Translations under genes and position numbers: made by a program
In this document: positions 1,005-36,104 of the stretch, piece by piece
How positions within the stretch are numbered: the stretch's first letter is position 1
Layout of the letters: each line of letters opens with the position of its first letter
The notes under the pieces: model-generated
Seen by the model: the letters and a program-made list of their open reading frames with translations, nothing else
Database searches by the model: none
What the model was told of the DNA's origin: nothing
From: a virus
IMG/VR virus record: IMGVR_UViG_3300033151_000213
Coordinates: 1-37,220 of that record
DNA: 37,220 nucleotides
Reading direction: 5' to 3' (one strand)

Positions 1005-2675
1005 TTATCCAGGGGTTAGCCTCGGGAAGTCGGCCGGTATGGCCTTTTTCCCCGCTCTAAAATGGACCTGGTGTCCCATCTCATGTAAGAACGTAACGAA
1101 CTCCCGGCCGCCCTTGCCGGCCGTGTCGGCGTGCATTGAGATAAACCGCGAAAAGTTTATCTCGTTAGCAAAATTCCCTTGTAGCTTGTACTCCCGCATT
1201 ACCTCGCCGACGAGCTCGCGGATCCGCGGTATGTTCGACTTAGCCACAAAGTTCCGGACCTGGGGGCTAACCCGGACCGTGACAAAGTTCCAGACGTCCG
1301 AGGTAACACCGCCCGCCTTCGGGGACTGGGCGAGTATATGGTTAGGCCAGGCGCCGAAGATAGACGACTGGCCGTTCGGTGCCGCCTCGAGGGATACCGC
1401 CCACTCGGTATAGCTATTATCCACCGACGTCCCGAACCTCCGCCCGACCGTATCCGACTGGCGTAAAAAGGTCGCGGAGGTTCCGTGCTGGTTCATAAAG
1501 TTTTTAACGTCCTGGCCCTGTTGTCCGAGCGTCGAGAGGGCGCCGTCTATGTCCGCCATGGTCGTCCCACCCTTAAAGGACGTATAGGCCTCGGGGACGT
1601 TTAGGGCGGCCGTGCTGGTCATGCTGGCCGGCTTGGGCGCGTCGGGCCCTGGTCCCTCGCCGGCGAGTTCCACGGCCACAAAGTCGATTTTATGTTCGAC
1701 AAAACACCTGCACGAAATTATTTCCGACGCGGGGCCGGCGCCGGGGTGCATTAGCGAGGCGCCGGTAATCGGGTTCGTAAACGGCTCCTCGATACCCCGC
1801 GGCTGGCCACTCATAGCCAGGTGGCCTGGTCGTTCGTTACCGGCGAAGCTGTGGCGCCAGATCCGGGTAACCGCGTTAGCAGGCGCCAGGCCCTCGTCGA
1901 CGATCTGTCGCAGGGCCTCGTCGCTGGCCTCGTTTAGGGCCTGCAGCGTCTCGGTCCTGGCGATCGTGTCGCCGCGGTACTTGGTCATACGGTTTTCGTA
2001 GCTCTGTACGATCTTGTTACGCTGGGCCTGGGGTAACACCCGGCCCTCTTGCATGGACTTTTTAACGACGCCGTCGAACCGTCTATCGCGGAGGACCCGG
2101 CTCTTATACCTGGCCCAGTTGAGGTCCTGCAGATCGTCGCCCATGTTAACGACCCAGCCGGCCTGTGCATTGGTTAGCCCGAGGACGCCGCCGCTACGTT
2201 TGCCGTTCTTACCTATCCGGCCGACGATATCCAGGGCCGTGGTCCGGGGGTTCTTACCCTTTAACATACCGTTCGTTAGCATGGTCTGGATCGCGGCCCG
2301 CTGTTCGGGGTACAGGCCTCCGCCGACGGCCTTACCCCAGATCAGGCCGGAGGAGTTCTTAGTTAGCCAGGCCTGGGACCGGGGGTTATTGATATCGAAC
2401 TCCATACCGTAGGTCTTAGGGACGTCGCCGGCGATACGAGCCTTACCACTTACCGCGTACACGTTACGGATACTCTCGGTAAGCGTGGACCACATACCCT
2501 CGCGGACGCCGGCGGCGATCATAATGGTATCGAGATCCCCGAGCTCTATGGCGCGGACCAGGGCGGCGATCCTAGCCCGACCCCGTGCGGATTGTATGGC
2601 GACCACGAAGTCGCGGCGTACAGGTCCCTCTAGTTTCCTAAGTAGGTCGTTAAGCTGTTTTCTACTTAGCGCCAT
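1005..2675 (-). CDS. MuF/SPP1 gp7-like minor head protein fused to a zincin-like C-terminal domain
   Basis: 556 residues. Residues about 160-330 match the Mu F/SPP1 gp7 head morphogenesis family: ARTETLQALNEASDEAL at about 239, a W-R-H segment, HPGAGPASEIISCRC at about 310-324. A Pro/Gly/Ala linker (331-355) leads to a C-terminal part ending in FLHEMGHQVHFRAG. The HEMGH at 531-535 is a classic HExxH zinc-peptidase motif, with a further His at 538. MuF proteins sit inside the capsid near the portal, and many carry polymorphic toxin or enzyme tails, so the peptidase may enter the host with the DNA. The protein ends 18 residues after His538, before the third zinc ligand such domains usually have, so the enzyme may be truncated. 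No clear ribosome-binding site precedes the ATG; the gene overlaps its upstream neighbour by 14 bases. Confidence 0.85.
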   Translation of the reverse strand: MALSRKQLNDLLRKLEGPVRRDFVVAIQSARGRARIAALVRAIELGDLDTIMIAAGVREGMWSTLTESIRNVYAVSGKARIAGDVPKTYGMEFDINNPRSQAWLTKNSSGLIWGKAVGGGLYPEQRAAIQTMLTNGMLKGKNPRTTALDIVGRIGKNGKRSGGVLGLTNAQAGWVVNMGDDLQDLNWARYKSRVLRDRRFDGVVKKSMQEGRVLPQAQRNKIVQSYENRMTKYRGDTIARTETLQALNEASDEALRQIVDEGLAPANAVTRIWRHSFAGNERPGHLAMSGQPRGIEEPFTNPITGASLMHPGAGPASEIISCRCFVEHKIDFVAVELAGEGPGPDAPKPASMTSTAALNVPEAYTSFKGGTTMADIDGALSTLGQQGQDVKNFMNQHGTSATFLRQSDTVGRRFGTSVDNSYTEWAVSLEAAPNGQSSIFGAWPNHILAQSPKAGGVTSDVWNFVTVRVSPQVRNFVAKSNIPRIRELVGEVMREYKLQGNFANEINFSRFISMHADTAGKGGREFVTFLHEMGHQVHFRAGKKAIPADFPRLTPG

Positions 2676-5179: not shown

Positions 5180-5631
5180 GATTCTACACCCCCGCCGACT
5201 AACCGAAGTTGAGCAAGGACACCAGTTAACGCGGTGGTATCCCAGCGAGCATTAGCGACAAAACTACCGCTACTGTCTGTCCCCAGGGCGCCGTCTGCTA
5301 ACAGGACCACGGGGTCGCCGGCACTAACGCCGCCAGAGTTCTCGATCCAGATAACGCCCTCGGTCATGATACGAGCGTTAGACATATACTCGAACGTATC
5401 CGGAGAGGCAGGATCGACCGACTGGTCGCGTACTGTTACGCCCAAAAAGTCGGTGCCGTCGCCGACCACGATACCTTTGTCCTCGGATCCCTGCATAACT
5501 GCAAGACCGAAGTCCAGGCCACCAGAGTCCTCGACGTTCCTGGAGATCAGGGTACGAGGCTCCTCGTTAACGATTGCACCGACGTATCCCACGGGGAGGG
5601 TATCGGCATAGGTTGTTTGTACGGTAGGCAT
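5176..5631 (-). CDS. Capsid decoration / cement protein (DUF2190-like)
   Basis: 151 residues, beta-rich, with no charged patches typical of enzymes. It starts MPTVQTTYADTLPVGYVGAIVN and carries the alternating pattern of DUF2190-type capsid stabilisation proteins: LDFGLAVMQGSEDKGIVVGDG, FLGVTVRDQSVD, MTEGVIWIENSGGVSAGDPV and a final ALTGVLAQLRL. Such proteins bind the outside of the shell after expansion. It lies between the DUF2213 protease/scaffold and the major capsid gene, which is the standard place for this protein. Confidence 0.75.
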   Translation of the reverse strand: MPTVQTTYADTLPVGYVGAIVNEEPRTLISRNVEDSGGLDFGLAVMQGSEDKGIVVGDGTDFLGVTVRDQSVDPASPDTFEYMSNARIMTEGVIWIENSGGVSAGDPVVLLADGALGTDSSGSFVANARWDTTALTGVLAQLRLVGGGVES

Positions 5632-6737
5632 TACGCGCCCTCCCTGTTAGCGCCCTTGTAGGCGTTCTGCATGTTGTCGATCATGGCCGTGTGGGCCTGT
5701 TCGACGCTATCGCCTACGGGTGGTACGTTACCCCGGACTACCCGACGTACGGGATCCTGGTTAGCGTCCTCGGACAAAATATCGAAACGAGCCGAGATAT
5801 AGTCGTCGGACTTGCCGTCGACGGTATCCTGGCCCAGTTTAGCGGCGACCGCCGTCTTACGGATATCCGTATCAGACAGGCCGGTGTAGTCCTTATCGGC
5901 GACCTGTTTGGCCACGGCGATAAGATCCGCCCGATCGTTAACCTTTTTATCGAGGTCGTCGTCGGACAGCTGAGAGGCCTTAAGGGTGTCGATCTCGGCG
6001 TCCTTCGACGCGAGCTCCGTATCCTTGGCGGCCAGTTCCGTCTGGTGGGTGGCTCCTGTTGTTTCCACAGTATTACGAGCGTCGGCTAACTCCGTTTGAA
6101 GTTTAGAGATTGCCTGCGCTCCCGCGTCCGTGGTTTCAACAGAGAGGCCGTCCACCGTTACGGTAGTTAGCTTAGTATCACTCATAATTTTAGAGTTCTC
6201 CATATGGTTGTCTCCCAGTTTTAAAGCAGATCCACCCCTGGCCAGGGAGACGAGAGCCAGGTGGTTCATACGTAAATTAGTCTGGACGGCGTCGTACTGC
6301 TCGCCCTCCGGCGTGGTGCCGGCGGTGGTGTCCAGGTCCATGGTGTAGCCCATTGACAGCTGGCGTTTACCGTTCGAGTGGTCCGCGATCGCCGCTTTAT
6401 CCATTAGCATAATAGGCACCCGGACGAACTCGCCGTCGCGTAGCACCTCGTCGCCTGTCTGGCCCTTGGCGTACTGTTGCCAGTTGGACGCGTCGACCAG
6501 CTCTGTCGGGTGGTCGGACGTTATCGGGCGGTGGGCGTAGGAGGCCATGGCGTCGGCCGCGAATACCTCCTCGGGCGGCCTGTAGACGCGTACGACCCGG
6601 GCCTGTTCGCCGTCCATACCCAGCTCGCCGGCGCTATACAGTTGGATCCCTGTACGTGCCACACGGGCCTCGGCCACCAGGTAGCCGTCGTTCGTAATCC
6701 GGATCCCGTCGGTCTCGACGGCGTCATATAGCATCAT
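5631..6737 (-). CDS. DUF2213 protein: prohead protease fused to scaffold
   Basis: 368 residues. The N-terminal half (1-175) resembles the HK97-type prohead serine protease in DUF2213 form: HRPITSDHPTELVDASNW holds the likely catalytic His76, and QLSMGYTMDLD the likely Ser128. The C-terminal half is a charged coiled coil (about 205-260, LQTELADARNTVETTG and repeated ELAAKDTELASKD) followed by a tail ending near the C-terminus in a short helix, as in scaffold domains. It overlaps the portal gene by 4 bases. An internal ATG at about residue 187 could give a separate scaffold, but I see no well-spaced ribosome-binding site for it. Confidence 0.8.
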   Translation of the reverse strand: MMLYDAVETDGIRITNDGYLVAEARVARTGIQLYSAGELGMDGEQARVVRVYRPPEEVFAADAMASYAHRPITSDHPTELVDASNWQQYAKGQTGDEVLRDGEFVRVPIMLMDKAAIADHSNGKRQLSMGYTMDLDTTAGTTPEGEQYDAVQTNLRMNHLALVSLARGGSALKLGDNHMENSKIMSDTKLTTVTVDGLSVETTDAGAQAISKLQTELADARNTVETTGATHQTELAAKDTELASKDAEIDTLKASQLSDDDLDKKVNDRADLIAVAKQVADKDYTGLSDTDIRKTAVAAKLGQDTVDGKSDDYISARFDILSEDANQDPVRRVVRGNVPPVGDSVEQAHTAMIDNMQNAYKGANREGA

Positions 6738-8569
6738 AGCGTTATCTCCTCGATATCGTTCTGGTTACCGTGCTGGATCTCCTCGAAGATCTCCGGCCCC
6801 AGGACGATCGGGCCCTGGTACGGCTCGACACCCTCGGGGATCTCGCCGTAGGTGATCGTAATGTGGGAGTTGTAGTCGTCGTACTCCCAGACGGCCCCGC
6901 TGGCCACCATGGCCTCGTGGCGCCACTGTAAGTCGTTGCTAACGAACTGCAAGACCTTGGCGCCGCCCTCGAACTCCTCGAACGCCCTGGCGCCGCCTGG
7001 CTTAATCCGTAGCCGGCCCCGTTCGTCGCTGGACCAGTCCTCGCCCATACGTAACCAGTCGACCGGAGTCTCGCTGTAGGCGATCGTTACGTGGAGATCC
7101 GCGGCCGGTAACATCTGCTCGATCCCTTGGCTCTTAGCCCAGGCTATGATCTCTTTAGCGTTAAGGACCCGGCGGTGTACGTATAGTGTCTTAGGTGTAG
7201 CGTCCAAGGAGGTAACCCCGTCCTCTAGTTCTCGTTCGTTATCGGGTAGCTCGCCCGTAAGCTCGAAGCCTGGGAGGATCGAGTGTTCGACCAATAGGTT
7301 AGCCGAGGCCTCGGCCAGGGCGTCCTCGGGGAACAGGTTCGTACCTACCAGTATGTCGATCGTCTCCGCGGTCTCTTTACTAATCTTAGACTTTTCCGCG
7401 TCGGTCATTTGCCATAGCGACGCCCACTCGTAGTCGATATCGTCCGGGACAGTGCCCAGGGCCGAGCGGACCAGGGCGTCGTCCAGGCGCCGTAGCGCCG
7501 GCGTAACGACCAGGGCCTGCATACTGTTAACACTGTCGTAGTAGTTCTTAAGGTCGGCCTCGCCGGTACTGGTAAGCCCTGCCGGCGACTGGCCCAGGAA
7601 CCTCGTTATAGGGATATCCGCGGCGCCCGAGACGGCCTGTAGGGCCTGGTAGCTGATATCGGGCAGACCGGCAAACGTGAATTGTTTCTGGCTATACTCC
7701 TCGTCCCCGTCGATCACCAGCATACCGTTGTTGCCTTTTAGCTGGGCGCTGAGCTCGACACGCTCCGCCAATAGCTCCCGGTGGCGCGGGTTCGCCATAA
7801 TGCTACCCAGATCCGGGATCTGCAGGACGTCGACCTTAGCCTCGTACACCAGCGACGATATGTTCGACGCGGTGGAGTCGGCGTTCCGGACTGCCTCGTA
7901 GGCGGACTGCAGGACGCTATCGCCCCAGCCCTGGTTCTGGCCGACGAGCTCCTGTGGGGTCAGTACGTCGTTACCGGTAAATATGGCCAGCCTGGAGCGG
8001 TGGATCTTAGTCTGGCCCGACTCGGCGCCGCTAACCTCGTACCACTGGGGGAGCCCGTAGTCCTCGGACATAGGGTCCAGCTCGATATCACCGGCGACCA
8101 GGACGCCTTTAGGGAACACGGTAACAAAGTCGAGGGCGCCCTCCTTAACCGTCGACAGGTCGAGCGGTAGCTCGGGGTCGTCGCCTTCGATACTAAAGTA
8201 GATCCCGGATCCGCCAAACAGCCGGGATTGCTGTAGGGCCAGTTTTACTTTCTGGGGCAGCTGTAGGCGCTTCTCGTCGGCCTCTATCAGTGCGATCTGG
8301 TCCGCCTCGGCCTGCCACTCCCGCCACTTGCGGGTCGCATCCTTAGCCGGTATGTCCACGACCTTACGGCCCATCCAGGAGGTGCGGTATATGACCGACC
8401 ACTGGGTATCTGTGAAGGCCAGGAGGTAGTAGTCGCCGCTGGACTGCTTGTCCCGGCCGGTATTGAGGTTAGCGATAAAGTTCTTAAACGAGTCGGTGAT
8501 CTGTTGTACCTTGCTCACTGTTCGCGGCTCCATAGTTCGGCGGCTGGGATCCTCATAACGCCGAGCCAA
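6734..8569 (-). CDS. Portal protein (DUF1073 type) with C-terminal Acb1-like 2H phosphodiesterase domain
   Basis: 611 residues. Residues about 30-435 form a DUF1073-type portal: DIPAKDATRKWREWQ, LALQQSRLFGGSGIYF, SRLAIFTG, and GAADIPITRFLGQSPAGLTS. From about 461 (TLYVHRRVLNA) a second domain matches the Acb1 anti-CBASS family of 2H phosphodiesterases. Its two HxT motifs are His493-Val-Thr495 (LHVTIAYS) and His569-Ile-Thr571 (SHITITYG), 76 residues apart. Phage T4 Acb1 cleaves cyclic oligonucleotides made by CBASS defence. Portal-Acb1 fusions occur in databases, so the fusion itself is not unique; activity in the virion is inferred. The start is TTG at 8569 behind a G-rich stretch; the ATG at 8533 is an alternative. 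Confidence 0.85.
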   Translation of the reverse strand: MARRYEDPSRRTMEPRTVSKVQQITDSFKNFIANLNTGRDKQSSGDYYLLAFTDTQWSVIYRTSWMGRKVVDIPAKDATRKWREWQAEADQIALIEADEKRLQLPQKVKLALQQSRLFGGSGIYFSIEGDDPELPLDLSTVKEGALDFVTVFPKGVLVAGDIELDPMSEDYGLPQWYEVSGAESGQTKIHRSRLAIFTGNDVLTPQELVGQNQGWGDSVLQSAYEAVRNADSTASNISSLVYEAKVDVLQIPDLGSIMANPRHRELLAERVELSAQLKGNNGMLVIDGDEEYSQKQFTFAGLPDISYQALQAVSGAADIPITRFLGQSPAGLTSTGEADLKNYYDSVNSMQALVVTPALRRLDDALVRSALGTVPDDIDYEWASLWQMTDAEKSKISKETAETIDILVGTNLFPEDALAEASANLLVEHSILPGFELTGELPDNERELEDGVTSLDATPKTLYVHRRVLNAKEIIAWAKSQGIEQMLPAADLHVTIAYSETPVDWLRMGEDWSSDERGRLRIKPGGARAFEEFEGGAKVLQFVSNDLQWRHEAMVASGAVWEYDDYNSHITITYGEIPEGVEPYQGPIVLGPEIFEEIQHGNQNDIEEITL

Positions 8570-11272: not shown

Positions 11273-12913
11273 CTATCCGCCCAGGAACCGTACCAGATCG
11301 TAGCCGCTCCGTAGCGGCCAGTAACACATCATAACAGCGTCTCCGAGGTTCGGCGACTTAGTACCTGGTGGCGTCTTGTCCACCATTAATTTTAGCCGGG
11401 CCCCGCGTCCTGCCGTCACCTGGCATAGCTCCTTTTCCAGTTGTCGTAACCGTTCCATACCCGGATCCAGGCTTATCAGGGTGTCGACGTCATACTCGGC
11501 GCCCTGGGTAACCGCCCTCCAGGTCCTGTAGAACCGGTTCCGTAGCTCCCACCAGCCCTGTGCCTTCAGGTTGGTATAGAAGTCTTTGTTAAGGGGGCTC
11601 TCTTTATCGCCCTCGATCACTCGTTTATCGGGGTTCTGTACTGCAGCCCCGGCGTCCCATGGTACCAGCTTAACGCCGGCCGGCATACTGTTGGAATCCT
11701 TAAGGTTGTTTACTTCGGACTTAACACTGACCCCGACACCGATACAGTCGTACTGCAACTCGATCGGGCCCAGCTGGGCGACGTTGGCGATAGCCTTCCG
11801 GGCGGTTACTGCCGGATCCCTGGCGCCCCACTCGTCCACGTCCCGGAGGATAACCCCCCGGCGAGTGGCCAGGGCGTTGGTGTCGCCTCCACTGTCCGCC
11901 ACGTCCAGGGCGGCGCCCCACATACCCCCCTCGTCCAGGCCGAGCTTAGTATGGGCCCCTATGGCCGCCTGTACCCACTCGTTAGCGATTAACAGCCCCT
12001 CGACAGACGCCGAGTAGCTCCGGTCGACCTCCTGGGCGAATATGTGGGTAAGCCCGTCGAGCTCGGCCTTTTCCTTACGGGCGTCGTACCAGGCCTGGGT
12101 CTTAGCCGGGTGGTCCCGCCAGTCCATGATAAACACCTGGGTCCTGTTCGGGACGATCTCCCCGCACCACAAGGCCCCGGCCTCTCGCCGGCGGTGGAAC
12201 ACGTTACCCAGGCCATGGACGGACGACAGGTCGATCGGGATCCGGGTGTTATCCGATAAGGCCGCCTCGATCCCCTCGGGCCGTTCGTACCAGGCCGACT
12301 CGTCCTTAAAATAAATCAGCTTACGGCCACCCCGCCCGATATTATCGCCGGCCTCGCCGGTTATGGTGGCGCCGTTGGCCGGGTTAATGATCCGCATATA
12401 GGACGCGTGCGACTTGTCGTTCCACCCCTGGGGCAGGAACTCGGGTGGCAGGCCGTCTATCAGCATACGTATTTTCTCGAATATAGAGTCGGGATCCCCG
12501 AGCTTATCGACCAGCTGTTCCTTACGGGATCCCCAGCCGATCGCGGCGCCGTTCCAGAACAGCCACAGCCAGACCGAGAACGCGCTACAGACCCAGGTCG
12601 CCCCCATGTCCCGGGACTTCTCTACCAGGCCGGCCGCCTCGCCCTTAACACAGGCCAGGAGGAACTCGACCAGCTCCGCCTGGCGCTGGAACAGGATAAA
12701 CGGCATACGGGTAGCCCGGCCGTCGCCGGCCAGGCGAGGATCGTACGTATCGCACCAGTGGTTTATAAACTCGACCGGGTGGGTCCTATAGAACTCGAGG
12801 GCACCGACGGCCAGGTCCGGGATCTGTCGCATAAGGATAACCTGACGCTGTCTCCAGGCCAGGACAGCCGTATAGTCGACCGGCCAGTTATCGGTCGTCG
12901 AGGGTGTGAGCAT
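11273..12913 (-). CDS. terL: Terminase large subunit
   Basis: 546 residues. The ATPase has a Walker A variant EKSRDMGATWV (about 98-108) and Walker B LIYFKDES with Asp204-Glu205. The nuclease half shows ALDVADSGGDTNAL with acidic residues at about 337-344, a central YDCIGVG strand and a late NLGDAVMMCYWP acidic motif, the usual RNase H-like arrangement. This motor cuts concatemeric DNA and pumps it through the portal. It overlaps the small-subunit candidate by 26 bases. Length and motif order are complete, so it looks functional. The packaging mode cannot be read from the sequence alone. Confidence 0.93.
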   Translation of the reverse strand: MLTPSTTDNWPVDYTAVLAWRQRQVILMRQIPDLAVGALEFYRTHPVEFINHWCDTYDPRLAGDGRATRMPFILFQRQAELVEFLLACVKGEAAGLVEKSRDMGATWVCSAFSVWLWLFWNGAAIGWGSRKEQLVDKLGDPDSIFEKIRMLIDGLPPEFLPQGWNDKSHASYMRIINPANGATITGEAGDNIGRGGRKLIYFKDESAWYERPEGIEAALSDNTRIPIDLSSVHGLGNVFHRRREAGALWCGEIVPNRTQVFIMDWRDHPAKTQAWYDARKEKAELDGLTHIFAQEVDRSYSASVEGLLIANEWVQAAIGAHTKLGLDEGGMWGAALDVADSGGDTNALATRRGVILRDVDEWGARDPAVTARKAIANVAQLGPIELQYDCIGVGVSVKSEVNNLKDSNSMPAGVKLVPWDAGAAVQNPDKRVIEGDKESPLNKDFYTNLKAQGWWELRNRFYRTWRAVTQGAEYDVDTLISLDPGMERLRQLEKELCQVTAGRGARLKLMVDKTPPGTKSPNLGDAVMMCYWPLRSGYDLVRFLGG

Positions 12914-23882: not shown

Positions 23883-24374
23883 ATGTTGACCCAGGCCAGA
23901 CTTAAAGAACTACTACACTATTTCCCCGTGGAGGGGATATTCGTGTGGCGCGTGTCGAGGGGCCGAGTAGCCGCGGGAAGTTTAGCGGGGCACCCGCACA
24001 CCGGGGGGTACTTGCGGGTCAAAATAGATCGTAAGGATTACCTGGCGCACCGTCTGGCATATCTATACATGAAAGGGTGGATGCCTGTCGAAGTCGACCA
24101 CGAGGATCATATTCGGGATAACAATAGTTGGGGGAACCTAAAGCCCGCGACACATATAATTAACGGACGGAACAAAGCCCTGACCTCAACTAACACTAGC
24201 GGAGTGTGCGGGGTCCACTGGGATAAAAGCCGGGGTAAGTGGCAGGCGGGGGCCATGGTTGACGGCAAAACCATACACCTCGGACGTTTCGATAAGTTCG
24301 AGGACGCGGTGGCCGCACGTAAAGCCGCGGACATAAAATACGGCTTTCACCCGAACCACGGTAAGTCGTCGTGA
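23883..24374 (+). CDS. HNH homing endonuclease with AP2 domain (copy 1)
   Basis: 163 residues. N-terminal adaptor (LTQARLKELLHYFPVEGIFVWR), then an HNH_3-type core AHRLAYLYMKG and VEVDHEDHIRDNNSWGNLKPAT with Asp72-His73, His76, Asn81 and Asn85, then an AP2-like DNA-binding domain from about 105 (GVCGVHWDKSRGKWQAGAMV, then HLGRFDKFEDAVAARKAA). Free-standing HNH-AP2 genes are selfish elements that cut phage DNA lacking them. It abuts the polymerase gene with a 4-base overlap (GTGA), and a paralog sits on the polymerase gene's other side. Confidence 0.85.
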   Translation: MLTQARLKELLHYFPVEGIFVWRVSRGRVAAGSLAGHPHTGGYLRVKIDRKDYLAHRLAYLYMKGWMPVEVDHEDHIRDNNSWGNLKPATHIINGRNKALTSTNTSGVCGVHWDKSRGKWQAGAMVDGKTIHLGRFDKFEDAVAARKAADIKYGFHPNHGKSS

Positions 24375-26671: not shown

Positions 26672-27184
26672 ATGACTGCGAAGATTTTAACACAAGACCA
26701 CCTAAAATCGTTACTCCACTACGCCCCCGATACTGGCGTATTTACTCGTCGGGTCACGGTAAACTATAACGCCGTGCAGGGCGACAAAGCTGGTAGCCTG
26801 AACGACCGGGGGTATCTGGTTATCCAGATCAACAGGGTACCCCATAAAGCCCACCGTCTCGCTTTTCTGTATATGACCGGGGACGTCCCGAAAGAGGTGG
26901 ACCACGTCAACCACATTAAAGACGACAACCGGTGGGCGAACCTCAGACCGGCAGACCGTACGGTAAACAATCGAAACACGTCACTCCGAAAAGATAACGC
27001 CAGTGGGTGCGTCGGTGTTCACCAGGACAGCCCGTCTGGTAAGTGGATCGCCCAGATTAATATCGACGGGAGACGCACTTACCTGGGCCGTTTCGACTCA
27101 ATGATAGAGGCGGTCTCCGTACGTCAAGCGGCGGCCGAACGGCACGGGTACCACCCGCTACACGGAGGGGCCCGCCATGGCTAA
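26672..27184 (+). CDS. HNH homing endonuclease with AP2 domain (copy 2)
   Basis: 170 residues, closely similar to the HNH protein at 23883 over its whole length by eye. Shared segments include LTQ-x-x-LK-x-LLHY, AHRLAFLYMTG, VDHVNHIKDDNRWANLRPAD (HNH core) and the AP2 part SGCVGVHQDSPSGKWIAQI with TYLGRFDSMIEAV. Both catalytic His/Asn positions are kept. The pair brackets the polymerase gene, a known favoured target of homing endonucleases. Amino-acid divergence argues against a very recent duplication. Confidence 0.85.
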   Translation: MTAKILTQDHLKSLLHYAPDTGVFTRRVTVNYNAVQGDKAGSLNDRGYLVIQINRVPHKAHRLAFLYMTGDVPKEVDHVNHIKDDNRWANLRPADRTVNNRNTSLRKDNASGCVGVHQDSPSGKWIAQINIDGRRTYLGRFDSMIEAVSVRQAAAERHGYHPLHGGARHG

Positions 27185-27350
27185 GACTGAGTTCGAGCTG
27201 TTCGAGGAGTGGGCTACGATAAAGCACCACTACCAGACCACCGCCGCTATCGCTCGGTTTAAGTTGTTGCGGAACTCGCGTAACGGCGACAAGCCTGTCC
27301 TGTCCGCGGCCACCATGGCCATGTTAGATAAACGACAGGACGAGGACTAA
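27177..27350 (+). CDS. 57-residue hypothetical protein
   Basis: Overlaps the end of the HNH gene by 8 bases, with GGAGGGG upstream of its ATG. Helical, charged sequence (KTEFELFEEWATIKHHYQTT, then ARFKLLRNSRNGDKPVLSAA). No family recognised. It is the last gene of the rightward replication operon, and its TAA interlocks with the TAG of the convergent sulfotransferase gene. Confidence 0.5.
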   Translation: MAKTEFELFEEWATIKHHYQTTAAIARFKLLRNSRNGDKPVLSAATMAMLDKRQDED

Positions 27351-27871
27351 TACCCGAACCGACTAATAGCCCCCACCTCACTAGCGGCAATTAGGCGCCT
27401 CGACTTGGCGCTTAATTGCGGACCCGGTACTGATTTATTGACGGCCTGCATACGCGGTACGTGGACCCCCACCCAGGCCAGGGCCTGTTCGAGTCCATCT
27501 TCCAGCCTAAATACTTTAATGTATGGCCACGCGATATGGGCCTGGTATAACGCGCCCACGTATCCGGGTCGTCCAGAACAAAGGCGCCATACGAACTCGT
27601 CCAGATCGTCCGACCAGTATCTCTGCAGGTAGCGGTCCTGTGTCGACGGGTTCAACCAGTACGACCGTATCCAGTCCGCCGGGTGACGTACCACGGTAAA
27701 GATACGTCTCGCCGGTCGTCTCGCGGGCATACGGTGTAGAGGGCTGAATATCGCGCAAGACTTACCGAGCGGCATAAGGGCCCCCACCTCGCTACCAGGT
27801 AGGTAGCTCCGGATAGCAGTACCCCCACACTTGGGGATATGAATAAAGGCCCAGCCCCTGCCGATCAGCAC
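27347..27871 (-). CDS. Sulfotransferase family protein
   Basis: 174 residues from a GTG. It shows both PAPS-binding signatures of sulfotransferases: the 5'-phosphosulfate loop HIPKCGGTAIRSYL at residues 11-24 and the 3'-phosphate site FTVVRHPADWIRSYW at about 58-72. The rest (YLQRYWSDDLDEFVWRL, YIKVFRLEDGLEQALAWVGV) follows the usual helical order, ending with a short basic region. It would transfer sulfate from PAPS to a sugar or protein. The target is unknown; it is the last gene of the tail operon, so a virion protein or a host surface glycan is possible. The protein is short compared with cellular enzymes. Confidence 0.8.
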   Translation of the reverse strand: MLIGRGWAFIHIPKCGGTAIRSYLPGSEVGALMPLGKSCAIFSPLHRMPARRPARRIFTVVRHPADWIRSYWLNPSTQDRYLQRYWSDDLDEFVWRLCSGRPGYVGALYQAHIAWPYIKVFRLEDGLEQALAWVGVHVPRMQAVNKSVPGPQLSAKSRRLIAASEVGAISRFGY

Positions 27872-28918: not shown

Positions 28919-30565
28919 CTAGCCCCAGCCCTCGACGGTGAGTAAGTTTTTAGAAAAGTTCATTTTTAGCTTACGAATAAATAAGTTTTTAGGTGTGCCT
29001 ATCAGTCGGAACCGGTCCGACTGGACGCTACAGAACTCGCCCAGCTGGGGGAGGACGACGTTAAACACGGGGTCGTTAAGGGTTACGTCGAACGTATAGA
29101 ACCGCCGCCGCTTCTGGTACAGCGTGGTCCACCAGCGATTTATCTCGTTCTGGGCCAGCTCGTACGAGCTGCAGTCGTAGTCGTCACAGAACCCGATCGT
29201 AAGCTCTACGGGGTCCGAGGTCCCGGCCCGCCAGTAGTACGACGGCACCGGATACGAGTAGGATCCACCGAACCCGTCGGCCGTGTGGTACACGTCGTCG
29301 GCTGTCCAGGAGGCGTCGTCGGCCGTCCATAGTGTCGGTATCGTAAACACGACCTCCTCGACCACGTAGTACCCGTTCGTTACGTTGGTCCTCCACAGCC
29401 CCTGTACGCCGCCGGCGATCTCGTCCTCGGTGTAGGCGCCCGGACTGAATCCGTAGGCGACCTGGGTACTGAGGCCGGGGGCCTTGTCGTCGTTTACCTT
29501 AATCCGCCCGACCATGTTGGAGTCGGTAAAATCAAAAGAGGGGGCGGACTCTACGTCCGGATCCGTGAGCCGGCCGAAATGGATCTCGGTTAACTCGTCG
29601 ACGTAGTACCAGCCGGTAACCCCGCCCAGGATCGTGTCCAGGAACTCCTCCAGCCGGGTGACTTTATTCGTGTGATACATGGGGTACTGTTCACCCATAC
29701 CCACGTCGTACTCCAGCGTCTCCAGCTCGGCCTGGTTAGCGTACTGCCAGATCCCGGCCCGGGTCATAGCCAGCCGTATAAAGGCGTAAAGACCTAACAG
29801 GTAGGCGCCGGTATCCTCGGGGTCCAGGGTTAGGATCCGGCCGCACGTGAGGCGCCCGGCGGGGTTCTGTAGCAGGGTAAAGCCGAACTGTTCCGCGGTA
29901 AAGTTCGTCGTCTCATACAGGGCGACGCCCCGGTCGTATACCTCGCCTTCGAACTGCTCTATAGGGATATCCGTAACGTGGTACAGGAGGGAGGTACCGT
30001 CGACCAGGGTGGTCGGCCAGAGCTGCATAGGGTCTTGTATGAGGCCCCAGGATATCGGGTACGGCTTGCCGGCGAGCTGGGGGTACTCCTCGCCGTAGTA
30101 CAGCTCGTTTATCGGGTTATCGAAGCCCTCCGCCAGGATAGAGTCTAGCCTAAATCGTATCGTGTTCTCGTTAGCGAACCCGATGTCGGCACAGGTGGCG
30201 GTCGCCAGGAGTTTAAGCTGGTCCGCTACGGTCGCGCCCAGGTCCACCTGGTAAAGGTCCACCCGTACGACGGTTACATTTTTAGCGAAGTCGATATACT
30301 CGTCGTCCTGGTCCTCGATAGCACAGTCGACATAGCCGAAGTCGATCCCCGACTCGTCCGCCCAGAACTTTAGGCCGATCTGTTTGGTAAAGATAATGTC
30401 GGACTTAACCCGGGCGTCGTAGTGTACCGGTAGGCCCGAGGGGTTAACCGTGTCCTGGTACATACCGCCGAACAGGGCTATACGTAGCACCGTAGAGGCC
30501 GGCTCCACGTCCCACTCGGTCGCGGTGAGCACGACCAGGATCTCGTTAGAAAACCGCTCAGACAT
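28919..30565 (-). CDS. Tail hub / distal tail tip protein candidate
   Basis: 548 residues, beta-rich and acidic. It carries FARILFGGM-like strands, a central region QLAGKPYPISWGLIQDPMQLW and KVTRLEEFLDTILGGVTGWYYVDELTEIHFGRL, the latter resembling the hub-type domain with a G-W-Y-Y turn, and a run of short WTADD/HTADG repeats near residue 410. It follows the tape measure gene with an 8-base overlap, which is where the tip hub protein of siphoviruses is encoded. The exact family is not certain. Confidence 0.6.
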   Translation of the reverse strand: MSERFSNEILVVLTATEWDVEPASTVLRIALFGGMYQDTVNPSGLPVHYDARVKSDIIFTKQIGLKFWADESGIDFGYVDCAIEDQDDEYIDFAKNVTVVRVDLYQVDLGATVADQLKLLATATCADIGFANENTIRFRLDSILAEGFDNPINELYYGEEYPQLAGKPYPISWGLIQDPMQLWPTTLVDGTSLLYHVTDIPIEQFEGEVYDRGVALYETTNFTAEQFGFTLLQNPAGRLTCGRILTLDPEDTGAYLLGLYAFIRLAMTRAGIWQYANQAELETLEYDVGMGEQYPMYHTNKVTRLEEFLDTILGGVTGWYYVDELTEIHFGRLTDPDVESAPSFDFTDSNMVGRIKVNDDKAPGLSTQVAYGFSPGAYTEDEIAGGVQGLWRTNVTNGYYVVEEVVFTIPTLWTADDASWTADDVYHTADGFGGSYSYPVPSYYWRAGTSDPVELTIGFCDDYDCSSYELAQNEINRWWTTLYQKRRRFYTFDVTLNDPVFNVVLPQLGEFCSVQSDRFRLIGTPKNLFIRKLKMNFSKNLLTVEGWG

Positions 30566-31715
30566 TAGCTATACGCCGTTGCTGCTCCGTTTGAGTCTTA
30601 AGGCTCGACTCCATATCCCGGCTGGTGGCCAGGTCCGCCTCCTGGTACCTCCGGTTCTGCTCCCGGATATCGACCAGGACGTTAAGGACCTGGGCCATAT
30701 CGCCCGACTCCTCGTTATCCCCGGTGCTTACGCTGAGGTTATCGGCGGTCTTAGTTACCACGAACTCGCCGGCGTGGAGCATAGCCGGGCCGGTCCTGTC
30801 GACCGCGCCACCGTCAGCGTAGCCGGGATAGGGCGGGATAATTATCGGCGGTATCACGATTACGATCGGCGTAGGTGGAGCCGGTATCATAACGACGAGC
30901 GGCTGTGCCGGCGGGATAGCCGCCAGGGCGTGGATCGCGTCCACCGTTGCCCCGGTATTAAATTCGATCCCGGTCAGTTTACCCAGCTCTGGGGACATCT
31001 CGTCGAACCCGATCAGATCCAGGAACGGTTTAAGCAGGACCTGCAGGTCGGCCGGTAGATCCAGGATATAGCCGCCGAGGTTACCGATCGCGAGGTTAGC
31101 GTCGGCCTCGTTGGTGGCGGTGCGTATGGCCTCCAGTAACGGGCCGAGGTCGGCCTGTATGGCCTCGGGTAGTTCTGCGATCGCTATGTCCAGGGCCTGG
31201 CTAAGCAGGGAGGTCGCCTCGGTAATTTTGCCTAAGCTGATCCCCAGCTCTATCGCCATGTCCGAGACACTGGCGCCCAGCGTCTCCGAAAAGGCGACCA
31301 GGGCCGCGAACTGTTCGGCGCTAAATGACTCGACACCTATGTCGAACGTCTTGGCCAATTCCGCGATCGAGATGTCCAGCTGTTTGACCAGCTCGAGGAC
31401 ATCTACGCCCAGCGTGGCGGCGAATACGCCCAGCTCCGCGACCAGGGCGGCGGACATAGAGTCGATACTCACGCCGGTAACGATCGCCAGTTCGCGCAAG
31501 GGGACACCCAGCTCCTCCATAAGCTCGAATATGTTGGCGCCTAACAGCGTAGCGACCTCGGACAGGCCGGCGGCTGTAGTTGTGGTAAGGCTCTCGAACT
31601 CCACGCCCAGTATGTTAACCAGCTCGCCCAGGGGGACGCCTAGCTCCGCCGCCAGCTGGACGACTGAGGTGTTAAGTACCTGGGACAAGTCGCGTAGTGT
31701 TGCCGCCAGATCCAT
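30558..31715 (-). pseudogene. Tape measure protein, C-terminal fragment (frame broken by 77-bp duplication)
   Basis: 385 residues that continue the reading of the gene at 31640-34666. The first 25 residues repeat the last in-frame residues of that fragment, because a 77-bp block is duplicated. Removing one copy restores a single 1343-residue product. Residues 10-170 are imperfect 44-residue repeats with the pattern L-G-V-x-L-x-E-L-x-x-x-L-G-V. Then come a hydrophobic Pro/Ile-rich stretch (VMIPAPPTPIVIVIPPIIIP) and a tape-measure-like end GYADGGAVDRTGPAMLHAGEFVVTKTA. I mark it as broken because the split is probably an assembly artefact rather than a real gene pair. Confidence 0.75.
31206..31688 (-). 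repeat. Protein-level tandem repeats of about 44 residues in the tape measure
   Basis: Four units by eye at residues 10-50, 51-94, 95-138 and 139-170 of the C-terminal fragment, each with a helix, an L-G-V/A-x-x turn and a second helix. Only the protein pattern repeats; the DNA is diverged, so this is old duplication. Confidence 0.6.
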
Positions 31716-31716
31716 G
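31640..31716. repeat. 77-bp direct repeat, copy 1
   Basis: Identical over all 77 bases to 31717-31793 and directly adjacent. Flanking bases differ on both sides (31639 c against 31716 g; 31717 c against 31794 g), so the unit is exactly 77. Since 77 is not a multiple of three it breaks the tape measure frame. Confidence 0.97.
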
Positions 31717-31793
31717 CTAGCTCCGCCGCCAGCTGGACGACTGAGGTGTTAAGTACCTGGGACAAGTCGCGTAGTGTTGCCGCCAGATCCATG
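31717..31793. repeat. 77-bp direct repeat, copy 2
   Basis: Second copy of the flush tandem pair. The exact length equals a standard k-mer size used by common assemblers, which points to an untrimmed circular-contig overlap. Confidence 0.97.
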
Positions 31794-34662
31794 GCCAGGA
31801 GGAACCGCTCGAGCTCGGCGATCAGTGCCGCGGCCTGGTCCGGTGGCGGCTCGGGCCCGTATATGGGCGGCTCGCTGTCGTCCTCCACTGGGATCGTCGG
31901 GCTTATGCCGGCCGGCATTTGTAGGTTATTAAGGGCCGCCGTTACCCGGTCGAATATGGCCGTATATTGTTCGCCGCTTGCAAACATGAAACGGGCCTCC
32001 TCGAGGAGGGCCTGGGCGGCGGCGGGTAACGCGGCGGCGGCGTCCACGTCGCCGGCCCTGGCGGCCTCGAGTAGCCGGCTAAATTGTAGATCCGCCTCGG
32101 CGAGCTGTTCCGCCGGTGTTAGCGTGGTCAGCTGTTCGTCGAGTAGTAGCGACTGGGTAAAGTCGTAGATGTCCTCGAGGGCACGCATCCAGTCCGTGAA
32201 CACGTCGTTAACGATCTCTCGTACCTCGTCGAATCCGCCTATCACCACCTCGTTTAGCTCGTCGCCGAACAGTTGCTGAGTCATGGACAGAACGCTAAGA
32301 GTAAGCTCGGCCGCCATACGTTTTAACCGGCGGTTAAATGCCGTGGCGATCATGGCGTACTCTTTCTGGGAGGCGCCCAGGTCGTCGGCCGCTTTCATGG
32401 CGGCGTTAAAATCGTCGCGGAGATCTAGCAGGCCACTAAATACCGTGTCGCCCATAAAGGCCCGGAGGCGTTGTACCTGGGCCAGGCGGTCCTCCTCGGC
32501 GTCCTCGAGTAACGCGTAATACTCTGCAGCTGTCGCCGAGATATTCAAGAGCATAGCGATCTGTGCCTGGCCCTCCTCGGTGGTGGCGTCCAGGGTCTGC
32601 ATAAGCTCCCACATACCGTCGGCAGTATTTGGAATCTCGAGTCCTACACTGGCGAACGCCCGCTCGACCTGGCTGGTAACAAACTCGAGTTGCTGCGCCT
32701 CGCTGGCAAACTTGTCAAAGAACGTCGTAAACTTGGAGATAAACTCCTCCACGCCGCCGGTAAGCTCGACCAGGTCGACCGACATATGGGCGAAGGCCTC
32801 CGGATCCATCTCGTCGACAGACAGGCCCAGGGCGATAATAGCCTCCTGCATAACCTGTACTGAGGTGGCCACTCGGACCAGGGTCTCGCCCAGCCCCTCG
32901 CCGACTTTCTGGAAGTCGTCTATAAACGGTACGACGTGGCCGGCCAGGCCGTCGAATATCTCGGAGAACACGGCCAGGAGTTCCTCCTGTTGCTGCTCGG
33001 CGGTTAGATCCATGGTGCTGATCTTTATGGTCTCGACTTCGAACGAGGCTAACCGGTCCTGGATCTCGTCCAGCGGGATCCCGATAGCGATCGCCGCCTG
33101 TTCGACGGTGTTAAATATGGACCGGAATACCAGGGCGAACTGCTTGCCCATCTCACCTTCAAGGTCGGCAAATTTTGTTTTTAGATCATAGTCGTCGAAA
33201 ATATGTTTTTTAATCTTGATATCAGCGAACGCCCGGACCAGAGTCTCGTTTAGTAGGTCGGTCAATTTGCCGCCTTCTATCTGGATCCCCGTGTCCAGTA
33301 GCTTGACTTTACCGCCTAAAAGTTTAGCCAGCCACTCGCCGATAAAATTAAGCCCTAAGATATTAAACGCGCCGGCGCCGGTAAACATGTCGATAATAAT
33401 ACTACCTGGGTCCTTCGGTATCTTTACGTCGGTATCGGTACCGCGGGCCAGTTGCACGACTGCACCGGTAAGCCCGGTCTGTAAGTTCGTAAGGGCGTGG
33501 AGCATACCCTTATTAATACCCACCAGCTCGCTCGTCGCGCTGGCGGTAATCTCCATAGCGTTAAGGATCGACTCGCTCTTGGCGTCGGTATCGCCCAGGA
33601 CACTACCGGTACCCTGGGACTCCTGTCGGGTACGGGTGGCCGTTGCACTACCGGCGGCACCGGTCTCCACGCCCATGGAGGCGATCAGGGCGGCGACCCC
33701 TATGGCTCGGGGTATGGCGGAGTACACGTCGCCCTCTGCCAGCTGTTTAATAACCGCCTGGACGCCCATTACCACGTTAAGGATCTGCATAACCGACCGG
33801 AGTCCCTCGGCGGCGGCGCTGTCCTCGTGGAACAGGTCGGCCACCTCGCCCAGGGCTGTAATAGAATCCTGGAGCATATTACGCCAGACACTATGGAGAT
33901 CCTCGAGGGCGCTCTGCATATCGTCGATACCGTCCAGGTACCGTTTTAACTCGTCCTCGTCGAGTAGTCCCTGGTCGAACCCCTCCTGGGCGAGCTCGCG
34001 AGCTTCGGCCAGGTCTCTAAGGCCGGCGGCGAGTGGGTCGAACTGTGCCTCCAGCCCCTGGAGGGCCTCCTCCAAGGCTTCGAGGCTATCGAGGTACTCA
34101 AAGTTAGCGTCGAGCTCGGCCTGGGTTATAACGGAGATACTCGTCCTACCCTTGGCGACCTCGCCGAAAGCGGTTAGGGCGAGGGTCGACTGTTGCAGTA
34201 ACTTTTTAAGTTTCTCGAGTTCTTTCGCGTCTATCTTCCCGAACTTGTGGGCCTCCTCCAGGAACGCCATGGCCTTTTTAAATTCTGCCAGCGCCTCGAT
34301 AGAGGGGTCGAGCATATCCCGCAGTTCGTTAAATGCCTTCATGTCGAAGGTGGGCGCCGCGTCGAGGCCGGCCAGCCAGGCCATGTTTTTAGCCAGCTCG
34401 GCCATGGTGTCTTTATACCTGGCCATAAGTTCGTCGTGGGCCAGGGACGCGTCGAGGTCCAGCTTAGCCTGGATCAGTTCCCGGAGCTGGTCTTTAAGGC
34501 GTTTACTCTCGGCCAGTACGGCCATTAGTTGGGTATTAAAGTGGTCGATCCGGCCGGTCCGCCAGGCCTCCTCCGAGATCCCCTGGGCGGCCATAAGATC
34601 GTTAAGGGTAAGGATAAGATCCTGGGCGATATCGTCCTGGGCGGCTATGGCCTCGTTTAGTT

Positions 34663-35187
34663 TCATAACCCCGACCTGGAGGCCGTCTTACCGAACAGCT
34701 TCATATTCTCGATAAGGTCTGCGATCTCGCCGTCGAGAGCGGTAGCCTCTCGCCCGGTGTCCCGCATAGCGATAGCCAGGAACCCCAGGGCCGCGACTCC
34801 GGCCATTATCAGACCGCCGACGCCGAATAGCAGTGGGAACGCGACCGCCATACCGGCCATACGGATCATAAACAGCCGGAGCGCCGGTAATAGTTTGGTA
34901 GATATCACGGCATATAGACCGACAAAGCCGGGGATCATCACGGCCAGCGTCCGGATCATACTACCCATAACGATAAGTACGGGCCCCATGGCTGCAGCTA
35001 TGGCGCCCCACTTAATGATAGACTTCTGTTGTTCCGGGGAGAGTTCACTAAAGGCCCGCGCCATGTTCTGGATACTCTTAGCCAGATCCAGGATAACAGG
35101 GAGGACGTCCCTCGAGATAAGGATCCCCATAACCTCTAGCTCTGCTTTCATCTGGGCGAACGCGAACGAGGGGTCCTGTTCCGCCAT
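34663..35187 (-). pseudogene. Tape measure protein, second segment (after frame break)
   Basis: 174 residues from the first ATG; the frame is open from 35250, where it reads AAIGTLDQRFEDMAEQDPSF. This and SELSPEQQKSIIKWGAIAAAMGPVLIVMGSMI are the second half of the TP901-type tape measure core, with membrane-like helices after it (VMIPGFVGLYAVI, AVAFPLLFGVGGLIMAGVAALGFLAIAM). It should continue the protein at 35148-36104, but lies in the -1 frame and lacks the usual connecting segment. It ends at an ATGA overlap with the next large fragment, which could be a true gene boundary or a further frame change. Confidence 0.65.
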
Positions 35188-36104
35188 ATCCTCGAACCGC
35201 TGGTCCAGCGTACCGATAGCCGCAGGTCCACGCCGAATTGTCGCGAGCGGTTAACCAGATCCTGGAAAGTTACAATGAATCCGTTTTCTTTAATCTCCCG
35301 GCGGACCTGTTCGATAGACGTACCCAGGGCGATAAAGGCCTCCTCGGCGTCCGGTGTCGGTTTCTGAATAGCGGCCAGGACCCCACGTAAGGAGGTCGCC
35401 GCCTCGTCGGCCTCGACGCCTAACAGAGTAAACGTAGCGATAAAGGCGCCGAGATCCTCGAAGGCCACGCCGAGCTCTGCAGCGATACCGATCACTCGAC
35501 CCAGTACCGGAGCCAGTGCCGAGGCCTCGAGGTTACCCTTTTCAATGGTACCGATCAGGACCTCGAGCGCCCTAGTGGAGTCCATGTTCGCCTTACCGTA
35601 GGCCTGGACCGCGGCGGTGGCCGCCAGGGCCACGACCCGGGTATCGCCCAGGCCGATCGCCGAGGCCTTAGCCGCTTTATTCAGGGTGTCCATAGCCTGG
35701 GCGCCACGCTGGCCGGCGGAGGTGATCGCGAACAGAGCGTCGGCCAGTTCTACCGGACCCCGGCCCACTGCAGGGGCGAGGGCTAGTATGTCTTTTCTAA
35801 AGGCGACGATCTCCTTACGGGAGACGCCTACCAGGGTGTTCATTTTCGTAAGGGTATGGTCGAAGCTGGTCCCGAGCTTGGCGGAGGCTGCAGCGGCAGC
35901 GAGTAGCGGCGCCGTGAGGTACAGCGTCATGTTACGGCCCATTGCTTTCATGGCCTTACTGGTCACCATGGCGGACTTAGCCAGCCGCTCCGAGGCGGTC
36001 GCGGCCCGCTTAGCGGATCCGGTTAACTTATCCAGTCGTTGTTTAGCGACCTCGGCCTCGAGACTCTCTACCCGGAACCCTAGCTGGGCGACATCAATCG
36101 ACAT
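35148..36104 (-). pseudogene. Tape measure protein, N-terminal TP901 core (3' end out of frame)
   Basis: 318 residues with AAGGG before the ATG. The TP901-type core is clear: KLGTSFDHTLTKMNTLVG, FRKDILALAPAVGRGPVELADALFAITSAG, LAATAAVQAYGKAN, LGVAFEDLGAFIATFTLLGVEADEAATSLRGVLAAIQKP and VTFQDLVNRSRQFGVDLR. After about residue 295 the sequence turns to Arg/Ser/Trp-rich residues typical of wrong-frame reading. In related proteins a P-x-I-R-A-L helix region of roughly 30-40 residues follows FGVDL; here it is missing and the sequence resumes in the -1 frame. A small deletion is the likely cause. No slippery heptamer is present. Confidence 0.7.

Follow-up and report, generated by a model that had tools for sequence, protein, structure and literature searches.

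The window, that is, the whole stretch of 37,220 bases from IMG/VR that was analysed, contains a minus-strand tailed-phage late module in which genes for a terminase large subunit, portal, head maturation protease, capsid proteins, adaptor and tape measure were recognized. Within this module the open reading frame at 6734-8569 (minus strand) encodes a product of 611 aa, in which a portal protein and an Acb1 domain are joined in a single frame (PHROG 146, portal, E 3.7e-145 over residues 19-598). As alternative TTG (8569) and ATG (8533, Met13) starts are present, Met13 is the likely start on the sequence, since MEPRTV is also kept in a relative, L018. The terminase large subunit gene (11273..12913, minus strand; PHROG 2, E 2.5e-17) lies upstream in the same late module. 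The stop of the portal gene overlaps by four bases with the next gene (5631..6737, minus strand), which encodes a head maturation protease of the DUF2213 type (PF09979, E 2.8e-51; PHROG 530, E 5.7e-106) and marks the late head operon. The tape measure region (30558-36104, minus strand) is distributed over overlapping frames at 31640-34666, 34663-35187, 35148-36104 and 30558-31715, a split that may be due to frameshifting or assembly errors.

The portal core, residues 58-404 (7358..8398, minus strand), belongs to the Phage_portal_3/DUF1073/HI1409 family (PF06381, E 2e-103; TIGR01555, E 1.8e-84). In a full-length model (pLDDT 80.8) this core superposed on the portal of Pseudanabaena phage Pam3 (8hds) with a Z score of 30.3; profile, fold and the position beside the terminase and head protease genes all place the protein in Phage_portal_3. 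The core is followed by a linker, residues 437-456 (7202..7261, minus strand), for which the pLDDT fell below 50 at model residues 425-444. This low-confidence segment, at about 437-456, is probably flexible or disordered.

Residues 460-601 (6767..7192, minus strand) matched the Acb1 profile PF23474 with an E value of 2e-35, scoring 122.1 bits against a cut-off of 27, and the portal C-terminus matched the solved Acb1 structure 7t26 at the sequence level (E 7e-7). An AlphaFold2 model of the domain, built on an alignment of 47 related domains, had a mean pLDDT of 95.1. Among the PDB matches listed for this model, the best was the Acb1 of Erwinia phage FBB1 (7t27; Z 15.6, rmsd 2.2 Å over 133 residues), followed by 7t26 (Z 15.2), a phosphodiesterase from Burkholderia phage BCSR5 (Z 14.0) and LigT (Z about 10), with enzymes of the Usb1/LigT 2H type matching at Z about 9-10. 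The first-pass annotation had proposed an Acb1-like domain at this position with catalytic pairs at His493/Thr495 and His569/Thr571; the profile, the 7t26 and 7t27 matches and the two HxT motifs, which fall at exactly those residues, bear this out. Structure prediction returned a 2H fold and not one unlike the 2H enzymes. Since about 6% of shuffled C-termini contain a pair of HxT/S motifs, the motif pair alone is no evidence, and the Acb1 assignment is carried by profile and fold. Chance occurrence of the two motifs was likewise ruled out by PF23474 and the fold, not by the motif count.

The first catalytic motif, His493-Val-Thr495 (7085..7093, minus strand), corresponds to H44/T46 of T4 Acb1 and was invariant in all 47 domains over which conservation was counted (pairwise identity below 80%). 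The second, His569-Ile-Thr571 (6857..6865, minus strand), corresponds to H113/T115; its histidine was likewise invariant, and position 571 was Thr in 38 domains and Ser in nine. The codons of both motifs were checked. Tyr463 (7181..7183, minus strand), equivalent by alignment to the base-stacking Y12 of T4 Acb1 (PMC9117128), was also present in 47/47, as were Gly525-Gly526, Arg528, Arg550 and Glu593. In a larger set of domains at 90% non-redundancy, a regular expression detected both H-x-T/S motifs in 137 of 139. One of the two misses (L301) was an incomplete match whose second motif is present in the full protein, and in the other (L291) His is replaced by Arg. Where dN/dS could be computed for pairs of domains it lay at 0.02-0.21, which indicates purifying selection in those pairs. 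Profile and model identify the C-terminal domain as a complete 2H phosphodiesterase of the Acb1 family, and its active site is intact and conserved.

The pocket is only partly that of the T4 enzyme. By alignment, Y12, H44/T46, F107, H113/T115 and E141 of T4 Acb1 have equivalents here, Y463, Y563 and E596 being the pocket residues that align, and W74 and W147 have none. Glu596 (6782..6784, minus strand) is the probable counterpart, by sequence alignment only, of the adenine-reading E141; this position was E in 31/47 domains and A, S or Q in the others. In the portal type the W74 position is occupied by a conserved GGxR loop. The lid Trp (W147) is absent from the protein of the window, which has the C-terminus FEEIQHGNQNDIEEITL, and is present in many relatives. 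Judged from these residues the chemistry should be kept, while the substrate preference may differ from that of T4 Acb1, since the pocket is unlike it at W74 and at the lid.

A scan of genomes by the portal core alone yielded 78 usable portals, of which 48 had the Acb1 domain and 30 did not. Twin portals with and without the domain were 98.1, 97.3, 95.7 and 90.2% identical in the core. L018 is 83-85% identical to the window at the DNA level on both flanks and 90% identical in the portal core, and its portal ends where the linker of the window starts. DNA alignment showed a clean indel with homology at either side in L102/L198 (526 versus 88 bp) and in L189/L195 (447 versus 24 bp), and the same was found between the window and L018; the size of the indel in twins was about 0.45-0.5 kb. 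Where the domain was missing from the portal, there was no separate Acb1 gene nearby in the flanks fetched, which were mostly 5 kb or less.

On a core tree of 99 portals 11 changes were needed, of which 10 were forced by well-supported branches, and the domain has thus been gained or lost at least 10 times on this tree. Because some of the portals were sampled by means of the domain, the proportion of fusions is inflated, but the existence of the twins does not depend on this. L078 and L127, which have long branches, cannot be placed reliably on the core tree, and L078 has a Mu-type portal. The core and domain trees rejected each other (AU p 1.5e-7 and 2.3e-6). L116 and L119 are 91% identical in the domain and 43% in the core; L120 and L152 are 54% identical in the domain and 85% in the core. 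Among related phages the Acb1 domain is an optional module that is acquired, dropped and exchanged between divergent portals. Such swapping is the pattern that an arms race would leave, and the existence of portals up to 98.1% identical with and without the domain shows that it is dispensable for heads.

The domain was found at 265 loci, 224 with the portal type of the window and 26 with a Mu-type portal (PF06074 where checked). At L299 it is part of a MuF-like head protein. Three large proteins of 1164-1651 aa combine Acb1 with NUDIX, two of them also with an ADP-ribosyltransferase (ART): L293:4770-9722 and L300:4128-8453 carry all three domains, and L302:4776-8267 carries Acb1 and NUDIX. Head morphogenesis genes stood upstream in both of the large-protein loci whose neighbours were checked (L293 and L300). 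Other enzymes are likewise attached to portal C-termini, as in portal-InPase (L030) and portal-PBECR fusions, but these belong to other enzyme families. Enzymes have thus been docked repeatedly on the portal C-terminus, and the swapping pattern marks it as a site for counter-defence enzymes. At L101:1830-4223 a portal with Acb1 continues into a PBECR3 nuclease domain. A different head protein of the window itself, a MuF-like head morphogenesis protein at 1005-2675 (minus strand; PHROG 3517), has a C-terminal extension with FLHEMGH, an HExxH motif of zinc-metallopeptidase-like appearance, and may be a second head protein with an enzyme tail. Free Acb1 genes were found in Roseobacter and T4-like phages. 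An apparent Acb1 on the prohead protease of Roseobacter phage DSS3P8 was rejected, as this is a free Acb1 of 150 aa that is misnamed in the record; the gene (L001:3989-4441, KT870145) is labelled 'prohead protease'. PHROG 755, the home of T4-type Acb1, bears the name 'RNA ligase'.

Fusions of this kind were published before Acb1 was described. Iyer et al. (2017) reported 2H domains joined to portal and MuF proteins, with the same architecture as here, and in the passages concerned made two proposals for the portal-fused 2H domain, RNase action or breakdown of host-defence nucleotides (PMC5512222). The first-pass annotation was thus right that portal-Acb1 fusions already exist. The portal-2H architecture has been known since 2017, and the protein of the window adds another case. 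The Pam3 portal has the same layout, matching over residues 25-603 with the same domain order (E 2.8e-134); its second motif is HIS, compared with HIT in the window. The 8hds sequence has 621 residues including the Acb1 domain, but the structure chain has 442, the core alignment ended at residue 431, and 8hds was not among the best 50 matches listed in the fold search with the isolated domain. The virion structure of Pam3 therefore seems to contain no model of the Acb1 domain, which is either flexible or has been removed. What is new here is the optional nature of the module, the twins with and without it, its repeated gain and loss, the conflicting trees and the fusion to Mu-type portals as well; relative to the text passages of Iyer et al. 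(2017) (PMC5512222), this applies to the twins and the module swapping.

Ten phage Acb1 proteins were shown to cleave CBASS signals, 3'3'-cGAMP among them (Hobbs et al. 2022; PMC9117128). The predicted fold and both catalytic motifs are common to the domain and to the Acb1 of T4 and FBB1 (gp57B; 7t26, 7t27), as are, by alignment, the stacking Tyr, the aromatic residue at F107 and a probable E141. Unlike the copy in the window, which is the C-terminal domain of a portal with a GGxR loop in place of W74 and no lid Trp, the T4 and FBB1 enzymes are free early proteins of about 150 aa. No paper testing an Acb1 fused to a portal came up in the literature search, in agreement with the first-pass statement that its role there is not settled; the Acb1 known from the literature is a free protein.

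From the profile and the models it is probable that the protein is a portal bearing, on a flexible C-terminal linker, an active Acb1-family 2H phosphodiesterase as an accessory module. With similar confidence, we infer that the domain cleaves defence cyclic nucleotides. Like T4 Acb1, it would hydrolyse adenine-containing cyclic di- or trinucleotides of CBASS or of a related nucleotide alarm, and the linear products would no longer activate effectors. The main action would take place in the cytoplasm of the infected cell at the time when late head proteins are made, the source of enzyme being the pool of newly made portal before it is enclosed in heads. Provided that the domain does cleave defence cyclic nucleotides, action by the newly made late protein is moderately favoured, and carry-over by the virion would be the lesser but still substantial prospect. 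Timing counts against this reading in one respect, as Acb1 of T4 acts early (PMC11722364) and the portal belongs to the late head module. At least one CBASS sensor has been reported to interact with a prohead protease (PMC12409349), which would make late action timely. More tentatively, and rather against the balance of our judgement, at least two portal families may share a freely exchanged, portal-tethered phosphodiesterase that destroys the alarm at the site and moment at which head assembly triggers it, or is cut loose in the head and delivered with the DNA. If true, phages would have an anti-CBASS strategy bound to the virion or its assembly, which would set it apart from the free early Acb1. 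The natural twins, portals up to 98% identical, allow a comparison of matched phages on CBASS hosts.

The domain might instead be packaged in the head, perhaps freed by the head maturation protease, and enter the cell with the DNA, so that cyclic nucleotides would be cleared before any phage gene is expressed; an enzyme placed in the virion and acting ahead of gene expression was the view of the first-pass annotation, and we regard such delivery as possible though doubtful. After ejection the portal does not leave the capsid, which is outside the cell, and its C-terminal end faces the capsid interior, so delivery would require release from the portal. The predicted disorder of the linker is consistent with such release, and the lack of a modelled Acb1 domain in the Pam3 virion allows for cleavage but is equally explained by flexibility. 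The first-pass claim that the enzyme stands ready on infection, ahead of all gene expression, is not supported. The occurrence of the same domain in the MuF-like protein of L299 and in the NUDIX/ART proteins of 1164-1651 aa, two of which (L293 and L300) have head genes upstream, also argues for delivery, since injection has been proposed for multi-domain proteins of this class (PMC5512222); the factor common to these carriers may, however, be just late expression. A structural role, in which the domain would help to assemble the portal, to package DNA or to gate it and would have its active site only incidentally, would suit the fact that it mostly sits at the same place, the portal C-terminus. 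This role is largely refuted by the twins, as portals up to 98% identical manage without the domain, and we consider it very improbable: the domain is swapped between divergent cores, it is joined to another portal family too, it is not modelled in the Pam3 portal, and its catalytic residues are nearly invariant.

What the enzyme acts on is a separate matter. Against a CBASS target it may be counted that the 2H superfamily also takes in RNA-processing enzymes, and the domain could act on RNA of the host or the phage, either as an RNase or in the processing of RNA ends. The 2H enzymes LigT and Usb1 were among its fold matches (Z about 9-10), and RNase action is one of the two proposals in the passages of Iyer et al. 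(PMC5512222); but Acb1 is closest in sequence and, among the matches listed, in fold, the stacking Tyr of Acb1 does not vary, and many members, though not the protein of the window, have the lid Trp. An RNA function is thus judged decidedly unlikely. It is also unlikely, though a little less so, that the same chemistry is directed at a signal other than that of CBASS, such as the cyclic oligoadenylates of type III CRISPR or another alarm. The differences from the T4 pocket at W74 and the lid would fit such a target, and the similar fold of the BCSR5 phosphodiesterase indicates that other phage enzymes make use of it as well. However, the equivalent of E141 is kept here and in 31/47 domains, and T4 Acb1 does not accept rings larger than three bases (PMC9117128). 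Cleavage of the cyclic di- and trinucleotides of CBASS, or of a related alarm, remains the preferred reading.

Outside the late genes, two similar ORFs resembling HNH-type homing endonucleases (23883-24374 and 26672-27184, plus strand) lie on either side of a DNA polymerase gene. A further ORF at 27347-27871 (minus strand), which was without a match in PHROG and NCBIfam searches, starts with IHIPKCGGTAI and has the look of a sulfotransferase-type P-loop protein.
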